Below, in pieces: positions 3,730-24,836 of a stretch of 25,575 bases of DNA. The first letter of the stretch is position 1. Each line of letters starts with the position of its first letter. The notes under the pieces are model-generated. The model saw only the letters and a program-made list of their open reading frames with translations. It was not told the DNA's origin and ran no database searches. The stretch is from positions 1-25,575 of IMG/VR virus record IMGVR_UViG_3300037069_001131. The stretch is one strand, 5' to 3'. The stretch comes from a virus. The position numbers and the translations under genes are program-made.

Positions 3730-4218
3730 TCAGACGCTGACTGGCGGGTGCTGCTGCGACCAGCGGTTCAGCCACTCACTCTGGATCTCGGAGTCAGGGC
3801 CGTCCTTGAGCAGCCGGGCGTAGAGGTCGAACCAGTCGACCCCGACCTGCATCCCGTCCGCGAACTGGATCGTCCGCGTCTGGAAAGGGCGGGTCCGCCC
3901 GCCACCGCGGTACGCAGTGCCGATCGTCGAGTGGACGATCGGACCATGCACAGCGGTTGCCCGGGCGATGACCTCGGAGTGACGCTCGTCCAGAGGTGCG
4001 GTCTCCCGGTTCTCACGCTCAGCCCCAGGTGCTGCTGCGAACGGATGAACGACCGCTTCGATCGCGGCCACGTCCACCTCCAGGTCCACAGCGAACCGGG
4101 CAGCCTGCGTGAGGCTCTCGAACTGGGAGGCCTGCTCCACGGTGTCAACCATCCGGGCTCCCGTCGCCTCAACGAAGCTCAGGTAGGTGCCGGCGTGGGT
4201 CTTGACGATGTAGCTCAT
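3730..4218 (-). CDS. Protein of unknown function (162 aa)
   Basis: The first about 65 residues (MSYIVKTHAGTYL, then FESLTQAARFAVDLEVD) resemble a small alpha/beta domain. The middle (HGPIVHSTIGTAYRGGGRTRP) is glycine- and arginine-rich. The C-terminal part, from MQVGVDWFDLYARLL, is helical and aromatic. No named family is recognised. The ATG at 4218 has a GAGAGAGAGACACC ribosome binding site. An in-frame ATG further upstream (4284) lacks one and falls within the leader hairpins. It is the only gene between promoter P3 and the tandem hairpins and has a leader of about 225 nt, unusually long for this genome. Confidence 0.78.
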   Translation of the reverse strand: MSYIVKTHAGTYLSFVEATGARMVDTVEQASQFESLTQAARFAVDLEVDVAAIEAVVHPFAAAPGAERENRETAPLDERHSEVIARATAVHGPIVHSTIGTAYRGGGRTRPFQTRTIQFADGMQVGVDWFDLYARLLKDGPDSEIQSEWLNRWSQQHPPVSV

Positions 4219-4445
4219 GGTGTCTCTCTCTCGGTTTGCCGGCTCGTCTCTCAGCGAGTCGGTCACTGCCAGGCACGGACGCAATGGCCGTGCCTGACGG
4301 TGATGGTGAGCGAGAGGGTCGGTGTCACACGGGCAGGTGCGAGCGCGTCAGGCGCAGAAACGGGGCCTCGGACAACCGACGAAAGTACGCGAGCGACAAC
4401 ACACATCGACACGTACCGAAGTACTTGCTCCTCTGTTCAGTTCGT
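4219..4445 (-). promoter_or_regulatory. Long structured 5' leader of the 162-aa gene
   Basis: About 227 nt separate the predicted P3 start (near 4445) from the ATG at 4218, with no gene I can support. The leader contains a perfect 9-bp stem, CAGGCACGG/CCGTGCCTG (4270-4278 with 4288-4296), which extends imperfectly outward. A second imperfect stem of about 8 bp lies near 4240-4258, just upstream of the ribosome binding site. This could be a cis-acting RNA element or an attenuator. I recognise no known riboswitch class. Confidence 0.4.
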
Positions 4446-4561: not shown

Positions 4562-6289
4562 TTACCGCCGAGGGATCATCGGTCCCCGCGACAGCCCGCG
4601 GCCCCGGTTCATGTCCGAGGCGGCTGCCCGAGCCAGGTCACGCGGCTGCTGCCACTGAGGTCGGTTCATGTTCATGCGCCCAGGCACGGTGATGCCGCCC
4701 TTGCCACCGTCACGCAGCCCGAGCAGGCCCTGGGTCAGCGCGTCCACCTGGTCGTCGGCGGTGTCGTTCGGGAAGTTCCGCAGCTCGGAGAGCAGGTCGG
4801 TGACCCACTCGTTGCCAGGGTCCGAGGGGTGCGGCAGGTAGACGTTGCCGCTCTCGATCTCAGGGGTGACGATGCGCGCGCGGGCCACCTTGCCAATGGA
4901 AGCCGTGATCGGCGTCAGGCCCGAGATGTCGTCCTTGAGGGTGTCGATGACCGCGGCACCGTTGGCCGCCTCCTCGATGATGCGCTTGTGCACGAGGTGA
5001 CCGCAGCGCGAGCGCGCCGGGTCGTTGGTGATCGCCCACTGCTTCATCGCCGCGATGGTCTGGGTGAAGGACCAGCGGCCGCGCTGCTGGGCGATGAGGT
5101 AGCGGTTGGCGGCCGAGCGCACCCAGCGTTGGCCGACAACCCAGCCGCCCGTGTCCGGGTGCGTCGACTTGAACGCGCAGTCCCAGCTGTCCAGCCACGT
5201 CCCGCCCACCAGGGCCGAGGGATCGAGGTAGACCACCCGCCCGTCCTCGGTGGCCTTGGACTCGTCCATCGTCCAGAACCGCCACCAGCCCGAGTCGAAG
5301 ATCGCGCCCTTGGCCGGCGCTGGGCGCTGCTGGTACATGGCCGAGAACGTGTAGGTGCCGACCGAGCGGCGCACGTCCTCCCACCGGGACAGGGCCTGGC
5401 CGACCGACTCGTGCACGATGGGCGACAGCAGCGGTGCACCCTCCGGCCGGTCGAGCACGTCGTCGGACTCCGCGAGGGCGGGCAGGCTGATCTTCTCCCA
5501 CTGGCGCGGGTCACCCTCATGCTCGGGGCTGAGCAGACGGCCCACGAAGTCGTCCTCGTGCCAGCGCGTCATGACGACGATGACCAGGTAGGGAGGCTCG
5601 AGACGGGTCAGGGCGACCGAGAGCCACCAGTCCCACAGGTTCTGGCGCATCGTGATCGAGTGCGCCTCCACGAAGTCCTTGATCGGGTCGTCGATGATCA
5701 GGACCCGCGCGCCTCGACCGGTCAGCGAGCCTCGCGTGGAGGTGGCGAACATGCCGCCCTTCTCCTGCGTGGCCCACTTCGCCCCGGCGCCGCCATCGGG
5801 TGCCAGGGCGATGCCCAGGTCCGGGTGCTCCTCGATCGCCACTCGGATCGTCTTGGCCCAGGTGCTGCTCAGGTCGCCGTCGTGGGAGGACAGCACGAAC
5901 TTCCACTCAGGGTGACGGCGCAGGATCCACAGCGGGGTGTAGATCGAGGTGAGTAGGGTCTTGCCGGCACGCGGCGGCATGGAGATGACGATGTGCCGGT
6001 TCTGCCCGCGCTCCACGTCCCGCACGGCCTTGGCGATGCGCGTGCCCAGGTGCTTGATGTGCGGGCGCACCACGAACCCCGGGTCGAGCTCCTTGGCCTG
6101 CAGGTCGGGGCGGGAGGGTATGCCGATGCCGTGCGCGATGCGGTAGGCCCGGGTGATCGAGGCGATGCGGCTGGTCAGCGCACGCACCTCGTCCTCGGTG
6201 GAGGCGTCGGCAGCCGCCGCCCGCAGGGAGTTGATGAGGTCCTGCACCGCCTCCGGGGTGGACGGGATCTCCTCCTCAGTGGTCGGCAT
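4562..6289 (-). CDS. terL: Terminase large subunit (TerL)
   Basis: This 575-residue protein is the motor that pumps phage DNA into the prohead and cuts it to length. Residues 104-111 (MPPRAGKT) are Walker A and VLIIDD (196-201) is Walker B. MTRWHEDDF (240-248) is the coupling segment typical of this family. The C-terminal RNase H-like nuclease shows its acidic residues at D370 (SWDCAF), E439/E440 and D513/D516 (DDQVDALTQG). The length is complete for the family. The start ATG lies inside the end of the small-subunit gene (14-bp overlap). A much longer in-frame reading upstream is only a shadow of terS. The C-terminus ends in an Arg/Met-rich tail. It is the last gene of a ten-gene unit. Confidence 0.96.
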   Translation of the reverse strand: MPTTEEEIPSTPEAVQDLINSLRAAAADASTEDEVRALTSRIASITRAYRIAHGIGIPSRPDLQAKELDPGFVVRPHIKHLGTRIAKAVRDVERGQNRHIVISMPPRAGKTLLTSIYTPLWILRRHPEWKFVLSSHDGDLSSTWAKTIRVAIEEHPDLGIALAPDGGAGAKWATQEKGGMFATSTRGSLTGRGARVLIIDDPIKDFVEAHSITMRQNLWDWWLSVALTRLEPPYLVIVVMTRWHEDDFVGRLLSPEHEGDPRQWEKISLPALAESDDVLDRPEGAPLLSPIVHESVGQALSRWEDVRRSVGTYTFSAMYQQRPAPAKGAIFDSGWWRFWTMDESKATEDGRVVYLDPSALVGGTWLDSWDCAFKSTHPDTGGWVVGQRWVRSAANRYLIAQQRGRWSFTQTIAAMKQWAITNDPARSRCGHLVHKRIIEEAANGAAVIDTLKDDISGLTPITASIGKVARARIVTPEIESGNVYLPHPSDPGNEWVTDLLSELRNFPNDTADDQVDALTQGLLGLRDGGKGGITVPGRMNMNRPQWQQPRDLARAAASDMNRGRGLSRGPMIPRR

Positions 6290-6788
6290 CTGAGTCTCTC
6301 TCCGCATCGGTCTCGTCGTGCCGGCTGATGACCTCGCCCTTGAGCACCACTGCCTCCAGCTCGTTGAGCGCGGCCTCCATCTCGGCCTGCACGCTGACCT
6401 TGAGGTTGATCCTCGTGGGTGCGTCCAGCCCGTTGAGCCGGGAGCGGCGCTGGCTGATCGAGATGAAGGTGGCGATGGCCTTCTCGTCGCCGTTGAGCAC
6501 CTTGGTCCAGATCGCCGCCTGGGCGCGGTCGAGCCGCGCGTTCTCCACCGCGCGCATCTCGTCGACAGCGCGGGTCTCCGCGATGTCGAGCGAGCGCCCA
6601 ACCATGTCGATGGCGGCCGACTTGGAGATGCCCAGGCGCTCACCGACTGCCTCGTAGGACAGCCCGGCGAGCACCAGGGACAACGCCTCGGCGCGCCTGG
6701 CCTGATGAGTCTCCCGGCGACGCTTGGCCGCTGGGGTCTCATCCATGACCTTCACGACCTCATCGCCTAGGTCACTGCGCCGCGCCAT
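6276..6788 (-). CDS. terS: Terminase small subunit (TerS), HTH-type
   Basis: This 170-residue protein lies directly upstream of terL, in the usual order. It has a helix-turn-helix at about residues 43-64 (LSYEAVGERLGISKSAAIDMV) that would bind the packaging site on phage DNA. A helical oligomerisation segment follows (AVDEMRAVENARLDRAQAAI). An Asp/Glu-rich C-terminus would recruit TerL. A repeated KR/RR-rich segment (residues 22-32) precedes the HTH. Its 5' end overlaps the upstream ParB-like gene by 17 bp and its 3' end overlaps terL by 14 bp. Assignment rests on gene order and the HTH, as the family is poorly conserved. Confidence 0.85.
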   Translation of the reverse strand: MARRSDLGDEVVKVMDETPAAKRRRETHQARRAEALSLVLAGLSYEAVGERLGISKSAAIDMVGRSLDIAETRAVDEMRAVENARLDRAQAAIWTKVLNGDEKAIATFISISQRRSRLNGLDAPTRINLKVSVQAEMEAALNELEAVVLKGEVISRHDETDAERDSDADH

Positions 6789-7428
6789 CTGCGTAGCCGT
6801 CGTCGCCGTGGGCGAGGTCGTCCAGGTCGTCCGCGGTCAGGCCGGGCAGCGAGCGGGTACGCACCTCGAAGGAGTGGAAGCACGAGGGGCACACGACCGT
6901 GGTGGTGTGCACGTTGGCCTTGTCGGCCTCGGTGACCGTGGAGACCTTGCGAGAGGCGTCGTCGACGTTCTGCTGGGTCACCGCGTCGCTGATCTGGCCC
7001 ACCTCGAGGTCGATGTCCGGGAAGAACGTGGTGAGCAGGCCCTGCTCGAACTCGCGCAGCTCCATCACCAGCTGCTCGTGGTCCCACGTCGTCATCTCGG
7101 AGGTCTTGTTGTCGACCAGGCGGTACTCGCGGGCCTTGTTCTCCGGCAGCGAGGACACGTAGACCGGGACCTGCGTCCAGCCCAGCTTCTTGAGGGCCTG
7201 CAGCCGGGTGTGCCCGACGATGATCACGTTGTCCTTGTCGACCGTGATCGGCTGCTGGTAGCCGTACCGCTCGATGGAGGTGGCCACCGCGTCGACGGCC
7301 TCCTGCGGGATGCGCCGAGGGTTGCGGAAGTAGGGCTTGATGTCCTCGATGGGCAGCGTCTTGGTCGGCGGCAGCGTCACCTGAGGCGGTGTGGGCCGGT
7401 CGAAGGACTCCTGCGCGGCGGTGCTCAT
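6772..7428 (-). CDS. ParB-like nuclease-fold protein with C-terminal zinc ribbon, paralog A
   Basis: This 218-residue protein has an N-terminal ParB/Srx-type domain. IEDIKPYFRNPRRI (27-40) is the first motif, YGYQQPITVD (55-64) follows, and the VGHTR signature (71-75) marks the nucleotide-binding loop. The known families of this fold bind CTP/ATP or act as nucleases. After a helical middle with TTWDHEQL and FFPDID, the protein ends in a half zinc ribbon, C180-x2-C183-x-H185. It is a paralog of the next gene upstream, sharing the NPRRI, YGY-QP and GHTR motifs and the CP-x-CFH ribbon. The stop lies inside terS. Translation is coupled to paralog B by ATGA. A link to packaging or modification is inferred from position. 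Confidence 0.88.
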   Translation of the reverse strand: MSTAAQESFDRPTPPQVTLPPTKTLPIEDIKPYFRNPRRIPQEAVDAVATSIERYGYQQPITVDKDNVIIVGHTRLQALKKLGWTQVPVYVSSLPENKAREYRLVDNKTSEMTTWDHEQLVMELREFEQGLLTTFFPDIDLEVGQISDAVTQQNVDDASRKVSTVTEADKANVHTTTVVCPSCFHSFEVRTRSLPGLTADDLDDLAHGDDGYADGAAQ

Positions 7429-8033
7429 GCGGTCTGAACCTCCAGCTTTCCGGCCATGACGGCCTCCTTGGTCACTTCCATCTCCCAGGTATGGAAGCAG
7501 GTCGGGCAGATGAACTCGGCCGTTCGGTCGACCTCATCCCAGGCGCTGGTGTCAGGGCCCTGATCTTCTGCCAACGAGGAGTCTGGCCCCTCGTCACGGA
7601 TGCTGCTGACCTCGGGGAAGAACGCCCGCATCAGCGAGAGGTTGAGCCCCTCGAGCTCGGCACTCAGGTGCTCGAAGTCCCAGGAGGTGAACTCACCGGA
7701 GCGGTTGTCCAGGACGCGCAGCTCCTTGACCTGGCCCGCGGTCAGGCCGGCCGCCACCACGACCGGGGCCTCCTTGACGCCCATCCGTCGCAGCGCGGTG
7801 TAGCGCGTGTGGCCGATGATGATGACGTTGCCCTCGTCCACCACGATCGGCTGGGAGTAGCCGTACTCGGTGATCGAGGTGACCACGGCGTTGACCGCCT
7901 CGTCGTTGATCCGGCGAGGGTTGCGCCAGTACGGCAGGATCGCGTCCAGGCTCATCGTCACCGGGTCGGGGAACGAGGGCGCGGCGGGCGCGGCGGGCGC
8001 AGCCTTCTTAGAACGTGGCTGGGACGTGCTCAT
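7425..8033 (-). CDS. ParB-like nuclease-fold protein with C-terminal zinc ribbon, paralog B
   Basis: This 202-residue protein has an Ala/Pro-rich N-terminus (residues 10-22) and then the ParB-like domain: DAILPYWRNPRRI (30-42), YGYSQPIVVD (58-67) and IGHTR (73-77). SWDFEHL and FFPEV match paralog A position by position. An acidic linker (148-172) leads to C176-x2-C179-x-H181, the same CP-x-CFH ribbon as in A. The two genes are adjacent and very similar in layout, so they probably arose by tandem duplication. The start overlaps the IbrB-like gene by 26 bp. Whether A and B work as a heterodimer is unknown. Confidence 0.88.
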   Translation of the reverse strand: MSTSQPRSKKAAPAAPAAPSFPDPVTMSLDAILPYWRNPRRINDEAVNAVVTSITEYGYSQPIVVDEGNVIIIGHTRYTALRRMGVKEAPVVVAAGLTAGQVKELRVLDNRSGEFTSWDFEHLSAELEGLNLSLMRAFFPEVSSIRDEGPDSSLAEDQGPDTSAWDEVDRTAEFICPTCFHTWEMEVTKEAVMAGKLEVQTA

Positions 8034-8736
8034 CCGGGTGCTCCCTCTTGTAGTTGGCCTTGGCCTTGAGCTGGCTGGTGGTCAGGACCGGCTGGCTGTA
8101 CTCCACGTCGGCGTACAGCTTGGAGTAGCCGGTGATGTGCTTGAGCCGGGCCAGCTCCTCGGCCTCCATGCCGAGCTTGGCGCAGATCGACTCGTCCGTC
8201 TCGCCCTCGGTGAGCAGCTGGAACACCATGTTCCCCATGCCCGCGATGGAGTGCCGGCCACGCGCGCGGTTGTGCCGCACGGTGGAGGCCATCCGGTCCG
8301 CGATGGGCTTGTCGAGGACCACCACCGGCAGGTAACCGCGGGTGCTGTCGTAGATGTCCTGGTAGCGACGCATGGTCGTGTAGCGGTGGAAGCCGTCGAC
8401 GATGATGTAGCGGCCCTCACCGCCCGCGGCCTCCGGGTCGTAGATCGCCACCACCGGCTGGGTGTAGCCGTCGCTGCTGATCGAGGTGTGCAGCAGGCGC
8501 ATCTCGTGGTGGGCCACGCTGTTCGGGTTGTAGTCGTTGGCCTGCACCCGGTCGATGTGGATCCACTGCACCCGCGCCACCGGCGCCACGCCCGCGAAGG
8601 GCAGCCGAGCCTCGGCGTCGCTGATGGCCTTGTTGAAGGCGGTCACCGCCTCGTCCACCGCCGGGTCGAAGTCACCGTGGGCCTGCTGGGCGCGGTTGGC
8701 GGAGACCGCGGTGCCCTCGGTCTTGGCGGCGCTCAT
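8008..8736 (-). CDS. IbrB-like ParB-domain protein
   Basis: This 242-residue protein has the ParB-like motifs in IbrB style: DYNPNSVAHHEMRLL (68-82), DGYTQPVVAIYD (89-100) and VDGFHR (113-118). These are followed by an Arg/His-rich helix (STVRHNRARGRHS) and an HTH-like segment about 170-195. IbrB and its relative YbdM in E. coli are encoded next to the PP-loop protein IbrA/YbdN and are known as a regulatory pair. Here the IbrA-like gene is two genes upstream with a papain-like gene between. It differs clearly from the two ParB-zinc-ribbon paralogs downstream and has no zinc ribbon. The start overlaps the papain-like gene as ATGA. Confidence 0.85.
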   Translation of the reverse strand: MSAAKTEGTAVSANRAQQAHGDFDPAVDEAVTAFNKAISDAEARLPFAGVAPVARVQWIHIDRVQANDYNPNSVAHHEMRLLHTSISSDGYTQPVVAIYDPEAAGGEGRYIIVDGFHRYTTMRRYQDIYDSTRGYLPVVVLDKPIADRMASTVRHNRARGRHSIAGMGNMVFQLLTEGETDESICAKLGMEAEELARLKHITGYSKLYADVEYSQPVLTTSQLKAKANYKREHPDEHVPATF

Positions 8737-9437
8737 GCGGTCGCCTGGAAGTGCGCGTCGCCGCCGTCAGCCAGCAGCGTGTCGAGGTCGGCGCGGGCGA
8801 TCCAGAAGTCACCGAAGGAGCCCCACCAGCAGCGCCCGAGCACCCAGTCGCGGTGGTGGTCGTAGCCGTGCACCGCGTACTGGTGCCCGCCCGCCACACC
8901 GCCTCCGAGGTGCACGCGGCCGTCAGCGTCCTGGTTGAACATGTCGTTGTCCCAGCGGGTGCCCACGCTGATGACCCGGCCCTCGACGATGTTCTGGACC
9001 ACCTCGTCCGCCCCGCCGAACAGCCAGCGGTAGGCCCCGCCCAGGCCCTTCTCGACGGCCACCTTGCACGAGGACAGGCCGTCGCTGCCGGTGTCGTCGG
9101 GCGGGTAGGTGCCGGGGAACGGGTCGATCTGGGTCTCGCGCTCGTACATTGCCTCCGCGGTGGACAGATCGAGGACGCGGTAGGGCTTGCGGTTGCCGGT
9201 GGCGTTGAGCTGCACGCACTTGGCCACGGCGGTGCAGTTGCCGGTGGTCTGGTTGGGCAGCGGGCTCGGGTCGTAGATCGGGATGAGCGTCGGCTTCCAC
9301 GTCGCCTTGTTGATGGGCGTGGCCATCGCGAAGGCGCGGCTGCGCTCGTCGTGGACCTTGTGCCGGCCCAGGCGCACGTCGTTGGCGGCGAACTGGTGAA
9401 CGTCCAGGCCTGCCGGCGTCTGTGGTGTCTCAGACAT
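8733..9437 (-). CDS. Papain-fold (C1-like) cysteine peptidase or derivative
   Basis: This 234-residue protein shows the marks of the papain fold. PNQTTGNCTAVAKC holds Q63 (oxyanion hole) and C68 (nucleophile). DTGSDGLSSCKVAVEKG (115-131) is a family-like segment. GGHQYAVHGYD (183-193) holds the catalytic H185. RCWWGSFGDFWI (202-213) aligns with the NSWG-WG-G-FWI region, but the usual Asn is Cys (C203). There is no signal peptide, so it would act in the cytoplasm or in particles. It sits between the IbrA- and IbrB-like genes with 4-bp and 8-bp overlaps. A processing protease for capsid or partner proteins is possible, as is a catalytically altered fold. Confidence 0.75.
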   Translation of the reverse strand: MSETPQTPAGLDVHQFAANDVRLGRHKVHDERSRAFAMATPINKATWKPTLIPIYDPSPLPNQTTGNCTAVAKCVQLNATGNRKPYRVLDLSTAEAMYERETQIDPFPGTYPPDDTGSDGLSSCKVAVEKGLGGAYRWLFGGADEVVQNIVEGRVISVGTRWDNDMFNQDADGRVHLGGGVAGGHQYAVHGYDHHRDWVLGRCWWGSFGDFWIARADLDTLLADGGDAHFQATA

Positions 9438-10707
9438 TGCGTCCTTCTTCCTCTCGAGCGATTGACTCCCACAGGCCCTTTGCCTGCATGTCCTTCTTCC
9501 AGTTGTCCCACTCGCGCTTCTTGCCGGGGTGCTTCTGGGTGCTGATCCAGGTATTGAGATTGCTGCCGTACACGTCGTTGAACATCACCGCGTAAAGCAC
9601 CTGGCGCACAATCTCACGCCGCGACACATAAGGCAGGACGTGCTCGGCGTTCGCCCACATCTTGTAGAACTTGACCCGGTTGTCGTCGCCCTCGACAAGG
9701 TGCTGAATGAGGTAGTCGAGATACTCGACCCACGTCGAGAACATGTAGGGCAGCTTGCCGCCGATGAACATGTCATAGACGTCCTCACCCACCTTGTTGA
9801 AGGTGGCCACGCCCGGGAAGCGAGCAACGGCGCGCTCCCACGTCTCAGGCTCGATCTCCTGCAGCGTGTGGAGGGCGCCCTGGCTGGACTCGTGGTGGAA
9901 CGAGGAGACGCGCATCGAGCGGGTGCGAATGCCGCGCTGGAACATCGCGTCGTAGTAGACGTTGTAGTCCCAGTCGTGGTCGTGAATGGCCTTCCACACG
10001 TCCCGGTAGGACCAGTCATAGACCGGGTGGAAAAGGTACGGGCCCTTGCCGTCCTTTCCACCGCCGCTGCACCACGTCGCCCATTTGTACGAGGGCACGC
10101 TGGTCATGAAAACGCGGCGGGTCGGGCTTTCCTCGCAGCGCATTCCCGTCAGGATCGCGCCGCCGTCCTTCTCGTTCATCGCGTGCAGGACTTCCTTGAA
10201 GCGGTCGATCTGCTCGCGCTTCTTGCCCTTGCCCTTGAAGAACGGGTTCTCCTTGATGGAGTCGTGCTCCTTGGGGCGCAGCCACGACTCGTCGTCGAGG
10301 TTCACGTCCCAGCAGTGCGTCCACTGCTCGGTGTGGCTGGTGGCGTTGAAGAGCCGGAACGGGATCTGGTACCAGTCCATGCTCACCTCGTCCCGGTCAG
10401 CCAGCCGGCGCAGGTAGTCACGGGTGGCCTGGTACTCCGCCTCCTGGTCGAGGAAGTGCACCTTGAGCGGCAGCTCACCTCGCTCGCGGGCCACGATCAG
10501 GGCCAGCTCGGTGACCACCGTGGAGTCCTTGCCACCCGAGGAGGACACCGACACATGGCCGTCGAACTCCTCGAAGATCCAGCGGATCCGATCCAGGGCC
10601 GCGTCGAACACGGTGCCGGGCAGGAAGTAGTGCGGGCGGGCCTTGCCCGTGAACAGAGGGTCCAGCTGCCTGCTGGCCTTCGGAGTGGCGATCGTCTGAC
10701 TAGCCAC
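9430..10707 (-). CDS. IbrA-like PP-loop ATPase (PAPS reductase-like, DUF3440 type)
   Basis: This 425-residue protein has an N-terminal adenine-nucleotide alpha-hydrolase domain with the PP-loop SGGKDS at residues 57-62. The next segment, VHFLDQEAEYQAT, is typical of the PAPS-reductase/DndC-like group. It has several cysteines (WTHCWD, GMRCEESPTRR, TWCSGGG) that could bind metal or sulfur. The long C-terminal part (YLFHPVYDWSYRDVWKAI onward) matches the layout of the IbrA/YbdN family rather than true PAPS reductases, which are about 240 residues. The reaction is unknown. Adenylation-driven sulfur or nucleotide transfer is the family expectation. An IbrB-like partner is encoded nearby. Overlaps of 8 bp at both ends. 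Confidence 0.85.
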   Translation of the reverse strand: MASQTIATPKASRQLDPLFTGKARPHYFLPGTVFDAALDRIRWIFEEFDGHVSVSSSGGKDSTVVTELALIVARERGELPLKVHFLDQEAEYQATRDYLRRLADRDEVSMDWYQIPFRLFNATSHTEQWTHCWDVNLDDESWLRPKEHDSIKENPFFKGKGKKREQIDRFKEVLHAMNEKDGGAILTGMRCEESPTRRVFMTSVPSYKWATWCSGGGKDGKGPYLFHPVYDWSYRDVWKAIHDHDWDYNVYYDAMFQRGIRTRSMRVSSFHHESSQGALHTLQEIEPETWERAVARFPGVATFNKVGEDVYDMFIGGKLPYMFSTWVEYLDYLIQHLVEGDDNRVKFYKMWANAEHVLPYVSRREIVRQVLYAVMFNDVYGSNLNTWISTQKHPGKKREWDNWKKDMQAKGLWESIAREEEGRNV

Positions 10708-11641
10708 GGCACACCGTCACAATGAACTCCCCAAGGCGGTAGCGGGTGGGCGAGCCGGGCAGCGCCTTGGCCGCCTCCCGGCTGGCATCGGAGCGCACGT
10801 AGAGCTCGTCCTGGTCGGCTTCGTAGTCGGGCAGGTAACCCCTGCGGTAGTTCATCAACACGATGGCACCTCCCGGGGCCAGCAGCTGCGGCATGGCCGA
10901 GACGAACTTCGGGTCGACGTAGGACACGCTGCCGAACAGCGAGGCGATCAGGTCGAAGCGTTGGCCGCGCAGCTGCTCGAAGCCCTCCTCGAAGGTGGCC
11001 GGCACGAGGTTGGAGACCTCGGGGTGCTTGCGGACCAGCTCGTTGAGCATGCCCTGGCTCGGGTCGATGCCCGTGTACAGGCTCGACGGGGTGATCTTCA
11101 TGTCCAGCAGCAGCCCGGTGCCGCAGCCCACGTCGAGGGTCTTGGGCGCGTAGGCGCCGAACAGCGACACGATCAGCTTGCGGATCGCCTCGTTCTCCAG
11201 GTGGCAGGCCGGGTTGTCGTAGCGGTCGTCGTATGCCGTGGCCATCGCGTCGTAGATGCTGAACCGCCCGCTTCTGGTGTGCACCGCGTCCTGACGACCG
11301 TAGGTGATCGAGGTGTCCGCCTGGTTGATGATGATCGTCTCTTCCAGGCCGGCGCCCATCGTCCACCACTTCTTGTCGCCCACGGTCAGGTAGACGTTGA
11401 CCCGGGAGTAGAACTTGCCCGGCTCACCGAAGGTACGGATGACGCGCACCGCGCGCAGGAAGTCCTCCTCGCCCAGGGTCTTGCCGCGCACCACGTAGGA
11501 GTGCGGGGCGTCTGGCATGGTCGAGGCGAAGCGCCACGCCAGGCTCGGCGCGAGCTCGGTCCACCAGTCGAGGTCAGCCTGAGTGACCATCGCGAGCCCG
11601 CGGGTGGCTGCTCCCTGCAGGACGGTCTGAGGAAGGGTCAC
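10700..11641 (-). CDS. Class I SAM-dependent methyltransferase with extra N-terminal domain
   Basis: Residues 168-300 form a Rossmann methyltransferase: motif I LDVGCGTG (169-176), an acidic residue after strand 2 in YTGIDPS (189-195), then FDLIASLFGS and LLAPGGAIVLMNY. The first about 110 residues are a separate domain (HSYVVRGKTLGEEDFL, RVNVYLTVGDKKWW, TIIINQA) that I cannot name. It is beta-rich and may recognise the substrate. No DPPY/NPPY or Pro-Cys motif is seen, so it is not a standard N6-adenine, N4- or C5-cytosine DNA methylase. It more likely methylates a small molecule, a sugar or an already modified base. ATGA overlap with the glycosyltransferase-like gene upstream. Confidence 0.85.
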   Translation of the reverse strand: MTLPQTVLQGAATRGLAMVTQADLDWWTELAPSLAWRFASTMPDAPHSYVVRGKTLGEEDFLRAVRVIRTFGEPGKFYSRVNVYLTVGDKKWWTMGAGLEETIIINQADTSITYGRQDAVHTRSGRFSIYDAMATAYDDRYDNPACHLENEAIRKLIVSLFGAYAPKTLDVGCGTGLLLDMKITPSSLYTGIDPSQGMLNELVRKHPEVSNLVPATFEEGFEQLRGQRFDLIASLFGSVSYVDPKFVSAMPQLLAPGGAIVLMNYRRGYLPDYEADQDELYVRSDASREAAKALPGSPTRYRLGEFIVTVCRG

Positions 11642-12201
11642 GGCACGAAGCTCCTGCTCACTCGGGGAGGACGACGAGGGTTGATCGCTGAGGGGCCCGG
11701 ACGGTGGTCGACGAGGTTCGGGACCTCGATCCAGTATCGGCGACCCGTGGCCTTGAAGTAGTCAGCCATCGCGAAGTCGTACCCAGTCGGGTGCTCACCG
11801 CTGACGTGCGGCTCCCAGTCGGGCAGGTATGCCGCAAGGTCGGCGGCCAGGCCTGCCGGGGCGTACCAGCACAGGTTGCCCAGGAAGGAGCGGCCCGGCT
11901 CCCAGCGACTGCCCACCTCCAGGTCGGCCTTGCGCATCGAGAAGAACTGGACCACCTCGTCCGGCTTGGACTCGATGACCGCCTCGACCTTGTCCCGCCA
12001 GTCGGTGGTCAGCAGGATGTCGTCCTCGAGGAAGATCGCGGCGTCGTCCCCGGCCGCGCGCAGGTTGCGCACGAAGGTGTCGTACGCGTTGTGGTTCTCG
12101 TCCCAGGTGATCTCGAGGTCGGGCACGGCCTCCTTGACGGCCTTGACGGCCTTGAGCCGGCGCGCGTCCCAGGGCACCGCCGCCATCAGGACCCTGGTCA
12201 T
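11638..12201 (-). CDS. Glycosyltransferase-like protein (GT-A fold)
   Basis: This 187-residue protein starts MTRVLMAAVPWDARRLKAV. At residues 56-62 it has IFLEDDI, an acidic E-D-D motif after a hydrophobic strand. This matches the metal-binding position of GT-A glycosyltransferases of the GT25/procollagen-like type. It continues with VVQFFSMRKADLEVG and a TGYDFAMADYFKATGRRYWI segment, then ends in a Pro/Arg-rich tail. It is short for a full enzyme, so substrate and activity are uncertain. The start overlaps the zinc-ribbon gene as ATGA and the stop overlaps the methyltransferase as ATGA. Its position suggests a shared pathway with the methyltransferase and IbrA-like protein. Confidence 0.7.
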   Translation of the reverse strand: MTRVLMAAVPWDARRLKAVKAVKEAVPDLEITWDENHNAYDTFVRNLRAAGDDAAIFLEDDILLTTDWRDKVEAVIESKPDEVVQFFSMRKADLEVGSRWEPGRSFLGNLCWYAPAGLAADLAAYLPDWEPHVSGEHPTGYDFAMADYFKATGRRYWIEVPNLVDHRPGPSAINPRRPPRVSRSFVP

Positions 12202-12494
12202 GCCCCACCACCGGCTGCCGCGATGTGCTCGACCACTTCGGGGTGGCCCTCCAGCCAGTCCTCCATGACCTGCGGGTAGAGGTCCATCTCCACGCGCAGG
12301 CGGATCAGCTCGTACTCGGCCTCGTGCATCTCCTTGAGCTTGCGACGGGTCAGGCGCATGACGTTCTGGGCGAAGTTGTTGCAGGTGGTGCACCGGTTGC
12401 GCCGGTTCCCGATCCGCGCCTTGCCTCCCAGACCCCTCATCCGGCACTCAGGACACGGCAGAGCCGGGGTGTCCAGGGCGGTTGAGGGAGCCAC
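12198..12494 (-). CDS. Zinc-ribbon protein, first gene of the terminase unit (98 aa)
   Basis: The protein has a four-cysteine zinc ribbon, CPECRMRGL then RNRCTTCNNF (residues about 14-40). It is followed by a charged helical region (RLTRRKLKEMHEAEYELIRLRVEMDLYP), so it may bind nucleic acid through the ribbon and dimerise through the helix. The only start that keeps the whole ribbon is GTG at 12494, because an in-frame TGA lies just upstream. The predicted -10 (12502-12507) ends only 7 bp before this GTG, so the message may be leaderless. It opens the overlapping unit that ends with terL. A regulatory role is possible but unproven. Confidence 0.8.
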   Translation of the reverse strand: MAPSTALDTPALPCPECRMRGLGGKARIGNRRNRCTTCNNFAQNVMRLTRRKLKEMHEAEYELIRLRVEMDLYPQVMEDWLEGHPEVVEHIAAAGGGA

Positions 12495-18422: not shown

Positions 18423-18945
18423 TCGTCGTGCCCTCTCTCGATCGTTGAAGTGTCTCGATGACGTCCTCCTCGGGGATGAGCCGCCGCCAGGCGTCCCATC
18501 CGATGTGCACCACGCCGGGCGCGGTGATCTTGACCGGCCGGTGCGTGTGCCCGTGCAGCAGCAGCTCACCGTCCCGAACGGCCCGCGGGCGGTGCTGCAG
18601 GGAGACCGAGCCGACCTGCGCGAGGTCGACCACCCCGAAGTCGGTACGCACCGTGGCGTAGCCCAGGTCGAGCCAGAACGCCGGGTCGGTGCTCACCTCG
18701 TCCTCCCAGTTGCCCATGACGAGGTGCTTGGTGCCGGGCCGGTCGGTCAGCCACATGCGGAACAGCTCGGGGTCGAGCCCGTTCACCATGTCGCCCAGGC
18801 ACCACACCTCGTCCTGCGCAGCCACCTTCGAGTCCCAGCGCGTGGCCAGCCAGTCGTCGTGGTTGGCCACGCTGGGTGAGCGCCGGCGCTTGGCGATCCA
18901 CTCGTCCCCCAGGTGCAGGTCCGAGGTGAACCACCGCCTGCTCAC
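18415..18945 (-). CDS. Calcineurin-like metallophosphoesterase
   Basis: This 176-residue protein belongs to the compact bacterial/phage metallophosphoesterase group. The metal ligands are visible: D9 and H11 (SDLHLGD), D52 (LGDMVNG), N79 (GNWED) and HGHTHRP (H131, H133, H135). In most relatives the GN motif is followed by His or Cys (GNHD/GNCD). Here it is Trp (W80), so the usual proton donor may be missing or replaced. The substrate is unknown, with phosphodiesters, nucleotides or DNA/RNA ends all possible. The start is GTG at 18945, coupled to the DUF932 gene by GTGA. Confidence 0.9.
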   Translation of the reverse strand: MSRRWFTSDLHLGDEWIAKRRRSPSVANHDDWLATRWDSKVAAQDEVWCLGDMVNGLDPELFRMWLTDRPGTKHLVMGNWEDEVSTDPAFWLDLGYATVRTDFGVVDLAQVGSVSLQHRPRAVRDGELLLHGHTHRPVKITAPGVVHIGWDAWRRLIPEEDVIETLQRSREGTTNG

Positions 18946-19946
18946 TGGGTGGCCACCAGCTGTGCGAGCTCCACCGCGTCGGCGGTGATCCGCGACCTAT
19001 CTAGGTACGCTCGCTTGAACCGGGTCTCCGCGGTGCGCGCCTTGCGGTAGTGGTTCAGGTACTCCACGCTGGCCTGCACCAGGCCGTAGGAGGTGAACCC
19101 GATCCCCTCGCAGGTGGGTCCGTCAAGGATGCCTCGCAGCTGGTTGCGCGCCGACTCGACGTTGCTCACCACACGCTGGGAGACGGTGTGCACCTGCGGC
19201 ATCGGGATGAACTGCTCGATGAACAGCTCGCGCTGCTCCTTGGTCACGTCCACCGTGCACAGGTGCTCGCTCATCAGCCGGAACGCCTGCACGCTCTCGC
19301 GCCAGCCGGCCAGTGCCGCCTTGGCCTCCTCGATACGCTCGTTGATGTTCTTGGAGTGGCGGAACACGAACTCCGTGCCCCGCACCGAGGCGTCGAGGTC
19401 GGCCATCTGGCAGGTGTTGTCGCAGACGATCTTGGTCATGGTCGCCTGCCCGCGGAACGAGCCGGTGCCGTCCTTGGAGTCCTGCAGCGCGTAGTACGGG
19501 ATGACCTCGGAGTGCGGGCCGGAGCCCTTGATCACGAGGGGCTCGGCCAGGCGCAGCAGCAGCCAGACCTTGCGGCCGCCGAACAGCGAGCCTCCGGTCT
19601 CGTACTTCACGCTGGCCTTGTCGACTCCCTCCAGCACCTCCGCGATGTCGTACATCGTGGAGTTCTTGACCACCTCAAGACTGGTCGGGTTGACGCTCAG
19701 CGTGGTGCCGTCGTCGCTGCGGACCACCGCCTGGAAGTCCTCGACCACCTCGTAGTGCTCCACGAGGGTGCCGTCCTCCGCGACCTGCGGCACCTTGCGG
19801 TAGACCGGCTCGGTGATCGGCTCCCACGGGTGGGCGATGGCCTGCGCCTCCTGCCTGGTCGGGTGATCGGGCAGCACCTCGCAGAGCCCGTGCCAGCCGG
19901 CGTCCCGAACGGCGAACACTCCGTCGCGCTGGGTGATCCCGTGCAT
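18942..19946 (-). CDS. DUF932 phage/plasmid-like protein
   Basis: This 334-residue protein matches the phage/plasmid DUF932 family: a long beta-rich N-terminal half (EPVYRKVPQVAEDGTL, EDFQAVVRSDDGTTLSV), then VWLLLRLAEPLVIKGS, then MTKIVCDNTCQMADL and a helical C-terminal half. The IVCDNTCQ segment is the family's recognisable core. The biochemical role is not settled. These proteins are common in phages and plasmids near recombination genes, as here. The ATG at 19946 overlaps the upstream stop (TGATG). A longer reading upstream in this frame lies on the neighbour and is rejected. Confidence 0.85.
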   Translation of the reverse strand: MHGITQRDGVFAVRDAGWHGLCEVLPDHPTRQEAQAIAHPWEPITEPVYRKVPQVAEDGTLVEHYEVVEDFQAVVRSDDGTTLSVNPTSLEVVKNSTMYDIAEVLEGVDKASVKYETGGSLFGGRKVWLLLRLAEPLVIKGSGPHSEVIPYYALQDSKDGTGSFRGQATMTKIVCDNTCQMADLDASVRGTEFVFRHSKNINERIEEAKAALAGWRESVQAFRLMSEHLCTVDVTKEQRELFIEQFIPMPQVHTVSQRVVSNVESARNQLRGILDGPTCEGIGFTSYGLVQASVEYLNHYRKARTAETRFKRAYLDRSRITADAVELAQLVATQ

Positions 19947-20167
19947 CAGGCGTCCGCCTTCCGGGCGTAGTTGTAGTTCTCGATGTCGAAGGGCCCGATG
20001 GGCGTGGGCGTGGACACGTCCAGCCACACCGAGTCGGTAGCCCGGTCCACGCGAGCAACACGTCGCGTGTCGAGCTGGCCGCCCTTGTGGGTGGCGAAGT
20101 CGCCCTCCTGGACCTCGGAGGCGGCGATGTTCTTCACCCCGTACTTGCTGGTCACCTTGTTCGTCAT
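19946..20167 (-). CDS. Small beta-rich protein of unknown function (73 aa)
   Basis: The sequence, with KYGVKNIAASEVQEGDFATH followed by RRVARVDRATDSVWLDV, reads as a short beta-barrel-like protein. It ends in an aromatic segment, FDIENYNYARKADA. There are no cysteines. No family is recognised. The ATG at 20167 overlaps the nuclease gene's stop as ATGA and the stop shares a base with the DUF932 start, so it is firmly embedded between two recognisable phage genes. Confidence 0.74.
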   Translation of the reverse strand: MTNKVTSKYGVKNIAASEVQEGDFATHKGGQLDTRRVARVDRATDSVWLDVSTPTPIGPFDIENYNYARKADA

Positions 20168-21015: not shown

Positions 21016-21546
21016 TCAGCCCAGGTTGACCTGCTCCAGGTCCACCTCGTCGGCGTCCATGCCGTGCATCTCGCGGGCCACCTCGTCCTCCGGCTCGTCA
21101 CCGATCGGGTCGAGACCGCCGAAGTCGTCGTCGCCCTCCTCAGCGGCCTTGGCCGACTCGGACTTGGTGATGCGGACGTAGCCGCGCACCTCGGACTTGA
21201 CCCGGCCGTTGTACGGGTCGCCGTCCTCGACGTCGATCTCGAGCTGCTTGCCGAGCCACTGGCGCAGGTTGACCCGCAGCCGCTTCTTGGGCGTGGGCAG
21301 GCCGATGCCCTGCATGAACCCGACCGTGCGGAACAGGGCCTTCTCGGTCTGGGTGAGACGGTCGATGATGATCGCGCCGTCGTACTCGCCGCCGACCACG
21401 CGGAACCACACGTTGATCATGTCGTTGCCCGCGTTGCTCTTGTCGAGCTCCACGTCATCGACGACCACGCGGTAGCGGCCAGGCGCAACGCGCTGGCCCA
21501 CACGGTCCTTGTAGTTGGACAGGTCAATGTTGAGCTCGTCAGCCAT
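21016..21546 (-). CDS. DUF669-like single-strand DNA-binding protein
   Basis: This 176-residue protein has an OB-fold-like core (GRYRVVVDDVELDKSNAG, NVWFRVVGGEYDGAIII, LEIDVEDGDPYNGRV) followed by a long acidic tail (from about 135, EEGDDDFGGLDPIGDEPEDE). A core plus acidic tail is typical of single-strand-binding proteins, where the tail recruits partners. The gene lies next to a Sak4-like ATPase, the usual partner in phage single-strand annealing or RecA-like recombination. The start has an AAGGAG site. It would protect ssDNA during replication or recombination. Confidence 0.82.
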   Translation of the reverse strand: MADELNIDLSNYKDRVGQRVAPGRYRVVVDDVELDKSNAGNDMINVWFRVVGGEYDGAIIIDRLTQTEKALFRTVGFMQGIGLPTPKKRLRVNLRQWLGKQLEIDVEDGDPYNGRVKSEVRGYVRITKSESAKAAEEGDDDFGGLDPIGDEPEDEVAREMHGMDADEVDLEQVNLG

Positions 21547-21565
21547 TTTGGCTGGCTCCTTCTCT

Positions 21566-22450
21566 CTAGTTGGAAGCCGCGGCGGGCGCCGCAGCCTTCT
21601 TGGTGGTGGCGGTGGCAGGTGCCTGCGCACCGCCGATGCCCAGCACCCTCGACAGCTGCCCGAGGGAGGTGGGACTCCTGCGCCCGAGAATGGGCGGGAT
21701 CTTGCCGCGCAGCTGGTACGGCAGGCGGGCCTTGGTGCGGTAGCCCATGTGCGAGCCGAAGCGCACGATGTGGTTGGCCGGTGAGAGAGTGTCGTCTCCC
21801 ATCGCGTCCGGGTTCTCCTCGAAGTCCGTGTAGACGATGTAGTCGGGCGCGGCGAGCACGATGCTCAGTGCGCCCTTCTGCACGTCGGGGACCCTCGTGG
21901 TGAAGCCGGTGTTCTCGTCCTCGGTGATCTTGGTCTGCGCCGTCATCACGACGTGCATGGGCTTGTCGCGCTGGGCGTCGGCCAGGCCGAACCAGAACGT
22001 CGCGGTGTCGGTCATCACGTCCAGGCTCTGGCCCCACGTCCTGATGTCAGCCGGCGCGGTGCCGGTCTTGATCTCGCGCACGGCGGTCTCGTCGTGCCCG
22101 AGCAGGAAGCGCATGGTCATCTTCTGCACCGAGGTCATCGAGTCGATCACCACGGCGGCGTAGTCGTGGTTGCCCGAGTTGAGGTACCAGAACAGGTCGT
22201 CGAACGCCGTGATCGACGGCGGCCGGACGATCTTGATGTTCTTGGCCCACGGTGCGCCTCGGAAGGAGCGGGTGCCCTTCTCGCCCGTGAAGTCGATGAA
22301 CAGGGTCTTGCCGCACTCCGCGATGGTCGAGGCCAGCACGGTCTTGCCGCTTCCCTGCGGGCCGTGGATCAGCCAGCGTCCCGCGTCGTCCTTCTGCTCG
22401 TCGCTGCCGGTGGCCGTCAGGCCCGCGGGCAGTGAGGTGGTGGTGGTCAT
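21566..22450 (-). CDS. Sak4-like RecA-fold ATPase (single-strand annealing recombinase)
   Basis: This 294-residue ATPase has Walker A GPQGSGKT (30-37) and Walker B AAVVIDS (98-104). Later motifs include HVVMTAQTKI and a conserved VPDVQKGAL segment. The size and order match phage Sak4/AAA_24 proteins, which promote single-strand annealing together with an SSB. The SSB gene follows 20 bp downstream. The C-terminus is Ala/Thr/Lys-rich and low complexity (APATATTKKAAAPAAA). The start is ATG at 22450. It probably acts in recombination-dependent replication or repair. Confidence 0.88.
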   Translation of the reverse strand: MTTTTSLPAGLTATGSDEQKDDAGRWLIHGPQGSGKTVLASTIAECGKTLFIDFTGEKGTRSFRGAPWAKNIKIVRPPSITAFDDLFWYLNSGNHDYAAVVIDSMTSVQKMTMRFLLGHDETAVREIKTGTAPADIRTWGQSLDVMTDTATFWFGLADAQRDKPMHVVMTAQTKITEDENTGFTTRVPDVQKGALSIVLAAPDYIVYTDFEENPDAMGDDTLSPANHIVRFGSHMGYRTKARLPYQLRGKIPPILGRRSPTSLGQLSRVLGIGGAQAPATATTKKAAAPAAASN

Positions 22451-23095: not shown

Positions 23096-23296
23096 TCAAC
23101 TGCCGGTGAGAGAGCGGGCGACGCCGACCGTGAACGTCGCCTCGTCCTCATCCGGACGCCACGCAGCACCACGCCGCACACCGCCGTTGACCTGCTCAAC
23201 ACCGACCCGTGTGCCCGAGGCGTCGGTGACCACCGCCGCCGTCATCGCGCGCCGTGCTCGCCGGTTGACCACACCGAGGGCGATGATCCGCTTCAC
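23096..23296 (-). CDS. Small basic protein of unknown function (66 aa)
   Basis: The 66 residues begin MKRIIALGVVNRRARRAMTA and continue with beta-like VGVEQVNGGVRRGA and TFTVGVARSLTGS. Arg-rich and probably nucleic-acid-compatible, but with no recognisable motif. The start is GTG at 23296, overlapping the stop of the nuclease gene as GTGA. P4 lies just downstream, so it is the last gene of the previous unit. There is moderate doubt because it is short and rests only on overlap. Confidence 0.6.
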   Translation of the reverse strand: MKRIIALGVVNRRARRAMTAAVVTDASGTRVGVEQVNGGVRRGAAWRPDEDEATFTVGVARSLTGS

Positions 23297-24609
23297 TGGC
23301 GCACCTCCAGCCGGAAGTCGGCCAGGTCGTACTCGCCGTCACTGCCGCCGATGAGCTGAGCCCGGCACAGGCCGGCGAAGTCGCACCACCGGCAGTTGCT
23401 GCTCAGGTTCCGAGCCGCCTCGCCGCTGACCTCTCCACGGTTGCGGGAGTTCACCATGTCCACGCTGGTGTCCACCGCGGCCCGCAGATGGGACTTCACG
23501 ATGTTGGAGTTCAGCGGTGAGCGGGTGCGCTGGAACCAGATGGAGCGGGCCACCGGCGAGCTCAGCCGCTCGATGATCGACTCCTCGGGCTGATAGATCC
23601 CGCCCTCCTTGAACCGGCGCGCGGGCACCGGCTCACCAGCCTCCTTGGCGGCTGCCTCCGCGTCCTTCTCGGCCTTGGTCTGCGGCAGCATCGCTCCCTG
23701 CCAGGGCAGCCCGTTACCGTCCGGCCCGCTGGCCCACTCGAGGTAGGTGCGCAGGTCCGAGGCTGAGATGGTCGGCTCGCCCAGCCGGGTGGCCAGCTTC
23801 CCCGAGGTGGTCAGCTGCGGAGGCCGCGGGGCCACCGAGCACACCCGGTCATATGCCGTGGCGCGGATAGGGCCCAGGCCCCACTTCGCCACGTCAGGTG
23901 CCGCGCCCCAGGCATAGAGCTGCAGCTGGCTGTCCATCATGTCGTCGACGGTGGTCTGCGTGCTCAGGGACTTGTGCGCCTTGTGGTCACGAGCGACCAC
24001 GAGGTTGCGACGCACGTCCTGGAACACTTCGTCGATGTAGCCCACGAGCACCGTGTCCGGGTCGAGGACGTTCCCGTTCTTGTCGGCGGGCAGCGAGGGC
24101 AGCACCCGGCGCCAGGCCATCTCGAAGGCCAGCGGCCGCTCGTGCTCGATGTCGTCGGCCCACATCTTGGCCCACTCCTCGTCCACGTAGCGCAGGCCGG
24201 TGTGCAGGTCCTCCCAACCCAGCCGCTCCTTCCACACGTCCTGCACCCGCGGGGTCAGCGCGTCGTACCACTCGATCGCTGCCCCGAAAATGGCGCTGCG
24301 CGGAGCATCGGCCTTGACCGATATCTCCGGCCCGCCGTCGACCGTGCGGATGGTCTTGGGCGTCCACTGCAGGCTCTCGTGCTTGCGGCCCCGCACGAGG
24401 GAGTCCGCCGCTCGCAGCGCGTGCCACCACAGCCCGAACTCGAGCTCGACCCGCACGTCCTCCGGGTCCACCTTCGAGAGCCGCTTGACGCTGCTGTAGA
24501 ACCACCGCTGAGGGCACGCCCGGTGCGAGGTGAGCTGGCTGTACGAAGCCCAGTGCTCGGTCGTGCGCTCGCCCTCCTTGACCTCCGGCTGTGCCGGTGC
24601 GGGGCTCAT
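23293..24609 (-). CDS. RecB/Cas4-like PD-(D/E)xK exonuclease with 4Fe-4S site
   Basis: This 438-residue protein fits the phage RecB/Cas4 nuclease family. YSQLTSHRACPQRW (23-36) gives C32, GLWWHA (59-64) has the motif I His, and VGYIDEV (189-195) has D193. VVARDHK (204-210) has D208 and K210. MMDSQLQLYAW (224-234) is the QxxxY motif. The C-terminal NCRWCDFAGLC has C406, C409 and C415, which with C32 would hold an iron-sulfur cluster as in Cas4/AddB. It is longer than Cas4, with an insertion of about 80 residues. Expected activity is exonuclease for recombination or end processing. The ATG at 24609 overlaps the upstream gene (ATGA). Confidence 0.9.
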   Translation of the reverse strand: MSPAPAQPEVKEGERTTEHWASYSQLTSHRACPQRWFYSSVKRLSKVDPEDVRVELEFGLWWHALRAADSLVRGRKHESLQWTPKTIRTVDGGPEISVKADAPRSAIFGAAIEWYDALTPRVQDVWKERLGWEDLHTGLRYVDEEWAKMWADDIEHERPLAFEMAWRRVLPSLPADKNGNVLDPDTVLVGYIDEVFQDVRRNLVVARDHKAHKSLSTQTTVDDMMDSQLQLYAWGAAPDVAKWGLGPIRATAYDRVCSVAPRPPQLTTSGKLATRLGEPTISASDLRTYLEWASGPDGNGLPWQGAMLPQTKAEKDAEAAAKEAGEPVPARRFKEGGIYQPEESIIERLSSPVARSIWFQRTRSPLNSNIVKSHLRAAVDTSVDMVNSRNRGEVSGEAARNLSSNCRWCDFAGLCRAQLIGGSDGEYDLADFRLEVRQ

Positions 24610-24836
24610 GCCTTGCCCGCCCAGCGCGAGGGCGCGGTGACCGGGCGCGGGCCGGGGTTCTTGATCCCCATCATCGCATTCCAGCCCGCCCAGCACTTGT
24701 CCAGCGTGGCCTCGCTGACGCCCGGCCAGGTCGAGTGGACCGGCACGGTCGCAGGCTGCCACCACCGCTGCCACCACGGGCGGGCGTCGGCGGGCAGGAT
24801 CTGCTTGCACAGGATGCACCGCTTGGGCTCAGCCAT
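24606..24836 (-). CDS. Small protein with Cys pair (76 aa)
   Basis: The protein starts MAEPKRCILCKQILPADARP, a C-x2-C knuckle, followed by a Trp-rich segment (WWQRWWQPATVPVHSTWPG). The later DKCWAGW may provide a third ligand. The C-terminus is basic. No family is recognised. A half zinc ribbon plus a Trp-rich surface suggests a protein- or DNA-contact role. The ATG at 24836 overlaps the upstream gene by 8 bp, and the stop overlaps the nuclease start (ATGA), so they are likely co-translated. Confidence 0.75.
   Translation of the reverse strand: MAEPKRCILCKQILPADARPWWQRWWQPATVPVHSTWPGVSEATLDKCWAGWNAMMGIKNPGPRPVTAPSRWAGKA

Follow-up and report, generated by a model that had tools for sequence, protein, structure and literature searches.

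An IbrA/IbrB-type gene pair linked to phage terminase genes suggests a DNA modification cassette

The virus fragment IMG/VR IMGVR_UViG_3300037069_001131, an incomplete genome of 25,575 bases analysed here over its whole length (the window), carries an IbrA/IbrB-type gene pair in a run of overlapping genes that leads into the packaging genes. We read the genes from 12201 to 4562, all on the minus strand, as a cassette for (hyper)modification of phage DNA, co-expressed with the packaging genes, and give this reading a probability of about 0.48. Its observed basis comprises the genes present, the conservation of the pair, its terminase linkage, active-site motifs that are intact and protein folds. 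The window probably derives from an actinobacteriophage; its terL region shows approximately 71–72% DNA identity to Microbacterium phages Hendrix, Rasputia, Leaf and Dewdrop.

The open reading frame for IbrA (9430–10707, minus strand, like all genes of the run) starts with GTG and encodes 425 residues, with SGGKDS at residues 57–62, and that for IbrB (8008–8736) encodes 242 residues with the motifs DYNPN, DGYTQP and VDGFHR. A sequence-only reading had proposed an IbrA/IbrB-type pair at these positions, within an overlapping gene run shared with a TerS-like gene and terL, and both proposals are borne out: open reading frames, Pfam and PHROG matches agree (phrog_2302, E = 2e-75, for IbrA; phrog_2159, E = 3e-66, for IbrB), and every junction overlaps. 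The series is uninterrupted from a small zinc-ribbon-like protein gene (12198–12494) through terL (4562–6289; PF03237 plus PF17289, phrog_38), with successive overlaps of 4, 4, 8, 8, 4, 26, 4, 17 and 14 nucleotides. Upstream of IbrA lie a putative glycosyltransferase (GT-like; 11638–12201; phrog_854, E = 9e-9, with an LEDDI motif) and a fusion (10700–11641) of a domain that we call U (residues 33–110) to a class I S-adenosylmethionine (SAM) methyltransferase fold (residues ~130–271). A papain-like cysteine peptidase homologue (8733–9437; phrog_16701) stands between IbrA and IbrB. Two further ParB-domain proteins of one family, the second ParB (ParB2, 7425–8033; phrog_620, CPTCFH motif) and the third (ParB3, 6772–7428; CPSCFH motif), separate IbrB from terL and from a TerS-like helix-turn-helix (HTH) protein gene (6276–6788; phrog_645), which is assigned by position and homology, its PF13384 match being below cut-off. 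The terL start at 6289 accounts for the last overlap of 14 nucleotides. The sequence-only reading had left ParB2, ParB3, the U-methyltransferase and the GT-like gene unnamed, all of which prove relevant below.

IbrA–IbrB pairing is near-obligate. A tblastn search of 50,697 phage records found IbrA in 215 and IbrB in 218, with near-identical host tallies (90 Flavobacterium, 55 Mycobacterium, 21 Streptococcus, 12 Arthrobacter and others). Conserved co-occurrence in related phages, set beforehand as a test of the pair, proved near-universal: IbrB lies within 1 kb and on the same strand in 77 of 80 IMG/VR loci retrieved by IbrA alone, two of the three remaining loci stopping just past IbrA, and it stands beside IbrA in 78/80 bacterial genome loci. 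Sequence distances of the two proteins are correlated (r 0.84, 91 loci), and the order IbrA-IbrB-ParB-ParB-HTH-terL is kept in Hendrix, Rasputia and Leaf, across record ends.

The link to the terminase extends far beyond the window and spans multiple terminase families. Across the IMG/VR loci, terL follows the pair, almost always on the same strand and mostly 0.3–3.3 kb away, and same-strand placement directly upstream of terL recurs with Terminase_3 (PF04466), Terminase_6 (PF03237/PF17289) and the phrog_38 type of the window; a TerL_ATPase/nuclease (PF03354/PF20441) terminase adjoins the pair in loci L071 and L079. The pair stands immediately before terL in Phlyer, likewise in Salgado with methyltransferase and HTH genes intervening, before terS-terL in Taranis, and between terL and the portal gene in FCL-2; it is located elsewhere in Gaia, CHPC1230, CR28, L338C and PhiR5_2. 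Because PF03237 alone misses many terminases (6/38), we searched for terL with profiles built from the loci; these profiles derive partly from the same loci, the additional terminase families were confirmed separately, and loci scored as having none may hide a terL. A control scan with Sak4 gave four loci, too few for a base rate, and terminase proximity lacks a matched control family.

Divergence within the Terminase_3 group is uncoupled between IbrA and TerL (r 0.05) and tightly coupled between IbrA and IbrB (r 0.98), indicating that pair and terminase re-assorted while the position was kept. A kept position can mean selection for that position or a recurrent insertion site. Under the latter, the pair would be an accessory counter-defence or host-takeover module that repeatedly enters a hot spot ahead of terS; packaging would be uninvolved, and the module may act instead on host nucleotides, on RNA or on protein. 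The lack of IbrA–TerL correlation in that group and the phages with the pair far from terL speak for such cargo, which we nevertheless consider unlikely, given that the clade of the window stays terminase-adjacent throughout despite changes of terminase family, that the pair is almost always upstream of terL on the same strand, and that the genes overlap.

A FastTree tree of 96 IbrA sequences recovers that clade with support as 22 rows, every one terminase-adjacent and between them showing three terminase types; in the group containing YbdN, one of the 39 scored rows is terminase-adjacent. The window IbrA does not group with YbdN but falls in a different supported group (97, SH-like, a local support value of FastTree). 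The assignment to the IbrA/YbdN type therefore held at the level of the superfamily, whereas by sequence the window clade is separate from that of E. coli IbrA/YbdN. The E. coli pairs IbrA/IbrB and YbdN/YbdM resemble the window in both protein families, in their adjoining, overlapping genes and in the same invariant motifs; ybdNM differs in its clade and in having no adjoining terminase, second ParB, U, GT-like gene or methyltransferase.

IbrA exceeds the Pfam cut-offs for both PF01507 (51.9 versus 22.5 bits) and DUF3440 (31.3 versus 25 bits) which, together with its SGGKDS PP-loop and the adjoining IbrB-type ParB gene, places it in the IbrA/DUF3440 superfamily as a predicted PP-loop ATP-pyrophosphatase or adenylating enzyme. 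The AlphaFold model (predicted local distance difference test, pLDDT, 85.8) has a PP-loop domain at 27–286 and an all-helical extension at 287–425, and its closest folds are flavin adenine dinucleotide (FAD) synthase (Z 15.8), adenosine phosphosulfate (APS) reductase (Z 15.6) and CysD (Z 14.8). Since FAD synthase and APS reductase tie in the VIA-align rows, the fold alone leaves the chemistry undecided. In the PDB the IbrA profile had its best hits in CysD (1e-7) and FAD synthase (2e-7), both stronger than CysH (4e-5). Invariant residues across 57 IbrA homologues include SGGKDS, DxE and GxRxxES..R, but none of their cysteines is conserved (best column 30/57), and the CGxH-type (ECGLH-type) motif is absent from all 57. 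In PP-loop enzymes without a sulfur-carrying cysteine, adenylation is likelier than reduction of phosphoadenosine phosphosulfate (PAPS) or sulfur insertion. The lack of a conserved cysteine therefore makes substrate adenylation the likelier activity of IbrA and weighs against sulfur chemistry.

Sulfur chemistry, either as a PAPS reductase serving as an auxiliary metabolic gene or as DndC-like phosphorothioation, would fit the fold shared with APS/PAPS reductases and the Pfam and PHROG names. We regard it as highly improbable, because the C-terminal cysteine of the reductases is not conserved either, the NCBIfam cut-offs for CysH (TIGR00434, 23.4 versus 165.1 bits; NF002537, 33.2 versus 154 bits) and for DndC (TIGR03183, 19.6 versus 290.4 bits) are missed by far, and the partner is IbrB rather than DndDE or a reductase operon. 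The suggestion of a sulfur-dependent (thio) modification in the sequence-only reading is accordingly not supported, with neither a conserved cysteine or Fe-S ligand nor DndC membership; placement with ordinary PAPS reductases, which would have undone its view of the pair, applies to the PP-loop fold shared with FAD synthase and stops at the cysteines. The best analogy for IbrA is an adenylating enzyme of the FAD synthase/CysD kind. CysD and FAD synthase, in its PAPS-type domain, adenylate an oxyanion without a catalytic cysteine; the window IbrA differs from them in its DUF3440 helical extension and its phage context. PADLOC returned weak, partial matches to the pair and no defence-system membership. 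A second, smaller PP-loop paralogue (phrog_424-like) occurs near IbrA in some phages (L068:3104-3799, L041:8566-9234, L086:1603-2301).

By modelling, IbrB resembles ParB and KorB, with an NTPase domain and an HTH. In the AlphaFold2 model (pLDDT 82.7), both domains match structures of ParB, Noc and KorB, with sulfiredoxin and free serine kinase ranking lower; this ParB-type fold, a GxxR-type motif and the C-terminal HTH place it in the ParB/Srx NTPase superfamily. All residues invariant in 51 IbrB homologues are intact in the window, DGFHR being invariant or nearly so, and DGFHR and HNRARG appear to occupy the places of the ParB nucleotide-binding motifs. In Mycobacterium phage Gaia (L006, gp104, 9614-10513), IbrB is annotated as an ectoine-synthase-like cupin/ParB fusion. 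ParB2 and ParB3 are homologous to the N-terminal ParB domain of phage ParB-adenine methylase fusions (phrog_498); unlike in those fusions, the window ParB domains are separate proteins, and either IbrA or a methylase encoded elsewhere would be their catalytic partner. A second ParB accompanies the pair in 64/75 loci with U and 23/26 loci of a cupin setting described below, and in several relatives it lies next to a separate DPPW-type methylase-like gene.

Three largely exclusive gene settings surround the pair, characterized by U, by a cupin or by an SNF2-like ATPase, and the window belongs to the first. U comprises 85 residues with the pattern W.FAKTMP..PHxYTxR...YWTMG...INRA, and gave no convincing Pfam match and no PDB match. 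Loci with U were collected blind, by a DNA pattern scan for its motif, which at least 120 IMG/VR stretches share, IbrA being nearby in most. IbrA lies within 2 kb in 64 of 80 loci retrieved by this pattern alone; in most of the others the stored DNA ends near U, and two show the beginning of an IbrA-like frame. U stands alone in 69 cases and is fused to a SAM methyltransferase in 19, to a SAM-decarboxylase-like domain in six and to a GT-like protein in one. Fusions of the decarboxylase type near IbrA include L034:3181-3840, L038:8734-9378, L039:9318-9995 and L232:5257-5943, the last with PF02675 at 41 bits and TSH and TC motifs, and three of these four loci also contain a methyltransferase-fold gene. 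Their sequences suggest aminopropyl chemistry in those phages. The cupin setting (26 viral loci), with a separate cupin family supported by profile, is terminase-linked too, while the SNF2-like ATPase setting mostly has no terminase link and is common in chromosomes. A core enzyme is in this way accompanied by interchangeable group-transfer tailoring enzymes, provided by the U fusions and, elsewhere, by GNAT and cupin proteins.

The GT-like family of the window has 49 hits across the fetched U/IbrA loci, and lies within 5 kb in 33 of 75 loci with U versus one of 55 without. Three glycosyltransferases, a GNAT acetyltransferase and a methyltransferase precede IbrA in Rasputia, and Leaf has a similar run of glycosyltransferase, acetyltransferase and methyltransferase genes. 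Such runs would also be expected if these enzymes modified a virion protein or a surface sugar from a precursor activated by IbrA. We judge this kind of decoration very unlikely, since IbrB with its HTH, the further ParBs, the DPPW methylase-like genes and the terminase are the more constant elements and the GT-like genes are variable.

DNA modification is favoured because a constant pair, often joined by an extra ParB and served by interchangeable group-transfer enzymes, fits varied end groups, and because the Dnd and Dpd systems likewise combine a PP-loop or tRNA-guanine transglycosylase (TGT) enzyme with a ParB-superfamily protein. Dnd/Ssp joins a PP-loop protein of PAPS-reductase fold (DndC/SspD) to a ParB-superfamily protein, DndB (for Dnd, see PMC10853773), the same pairing as in the window; the window differs in having no conserved cysteine, in missing the DndC cut-off and in lacking DndD, DndE and DndA genes in the run. 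The Dpd 7-deazaguanine system associates DpdA, a base-modifying enzyme, with the ParB-like ATPase DpdB (PMC12839542), whereas no TGT/DpdA-like gene was seen in the cassette, whose IbrA is a PP-loop enzyme. In the proposed cassette, IbrA would bind ATP and adenylate a nucleotide or DNA at a carbonyl or phosphate, with no sulfur-carrying cysteine involved. IbrB would act as an NTP-switched ParB-type clamp with an HTH, loading on phage DNA and bringing IbrA there, with ParB2 and ParB3 as possible partner or targeting clamps, as in the ParB-adenine methylase fusions. The U-methyltransferase and the GT-like enzyme would make or finish the added group, a methyl or sugar in the window; relatives that have a SAM decarboxylase, GNAT or cupin in their place could add an aminopropyl, an acetyl or another group. 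Modification just ahead of packaging would shield the injected genome from host nucleases.

A more specific proposal, which we put forward tentatively and as clearly short of an even chance, is that these genes form an undescribed, packaging-coupled hypermodification route, in which a cysteine-free adenylating enzyme of PAPS-reductase fold, recruited by an NTP-gated ParB clamp, attaches groups derived from SAM, decarboxylated SAM or a sugar. In this specific proposal, and sharing its doubt as one joint claim, U could be a new substrate- or carrier-handling domain. We found no published description of the U, GT-like, SAM-decarboxylase-fusion or second-ParB partners of this clade. A literature search that covered few subscription journals or preprints likewise turned up nothing that connects IbrAB with DNA modification or with packaging.

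Several points weigh against the cassette reading. The evidence on function is gene context and fold, similarity to the window guided the sampling of loci, and no modified base or DNA-chemistry experiment for any IbrAB phage was found in searchable papers. The glycosyltransferase assignment is weak (best PDB glycosyltransferase match, E 0.93), U occurs on a few plasmids, of Rhizobium and Butyrivibrio, where no IbrA is annotated nearby, and the stretch preceding terS may attract insertions as a hot spot. Moreover, neither terminase nor tailoring genes accompany ybdNM or the majority of chromosomal pairs, and the role described for IbrAB in E. coli is co-activation of gene expression from prophages (PMC4490671). 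Together with the adjacency of ybdNM to the regulator CitR, which controls them, and the repressor KorB among the closest IbrB folds, that description would suit a regulatory function, in which late or prophage genes come under the control of IbrB as an NTP-switched transcription factor resembling KorB, itself set by a nucleotide ligand that IbrA produces or senses. We think such a function improbable as the main explanation, because it does not explain why methyltransferase, SAM decarboxylase, GNAT, cupin and GT-like partners recur and because the terminase-linked clade is separate from YbdN. The claim of the sequence-only reading that the pair acts on phage DNA, not only on transcription, thus stands in part: context points there, while the modification step is one that we infer.

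To our knowledge, IbrA/IbrB have for two decades been known only as a 'prophage co-activator'. The terminase-linked clade, the U domain and the swapped partners turn this unexplained pair into a directly testable hypothesis, and cultured Microbacterium, Mycobacterium and Flavobacterium phages carry the pair. If the hypermodification route is real, many phage genes labelled cysH or 'prophage co-activator' would belong to it, and it would bring a new chemistry to the modification of phage DNA and cast ParB clamps in a new role, the loading of modifying enzymes. Since IbrA-type genes pass PF01507, pipelines for viral cysH auxiliary genes could misfile the family as sulfur metabolism.

The papain-like peptidase homologue is probably not a core part of the cassette. 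We set it aside as a module component; its listed relatives are in Arthrobacter, Gordonia, Mycobacterium and Streptomyces phages, one of them adjoining a holin/membrane-protein gene. The slot between IbrA and IbrB, filled by the peptidase in the window, holds a methyltransferase or a U protein in other relatives. On the Butyrivibrio plasmid pCY186 (L304), a stand-alone U gene (3971–4306) lies two genes after mcrC, a gene of modified-DNA restriction, with no IbrA annotated near. Elsewhere in the window, the minus strand encodes an ATP-dependent DNA ligase domain protein (313–1263), a DUF932 protein (18942–20027), a DUF669 protein (21016–21630), an AAA_24 (Sak4-like) ATPase (21566–22450) and a PD-(D/E)XK nuclease domain protein (23293–24819).

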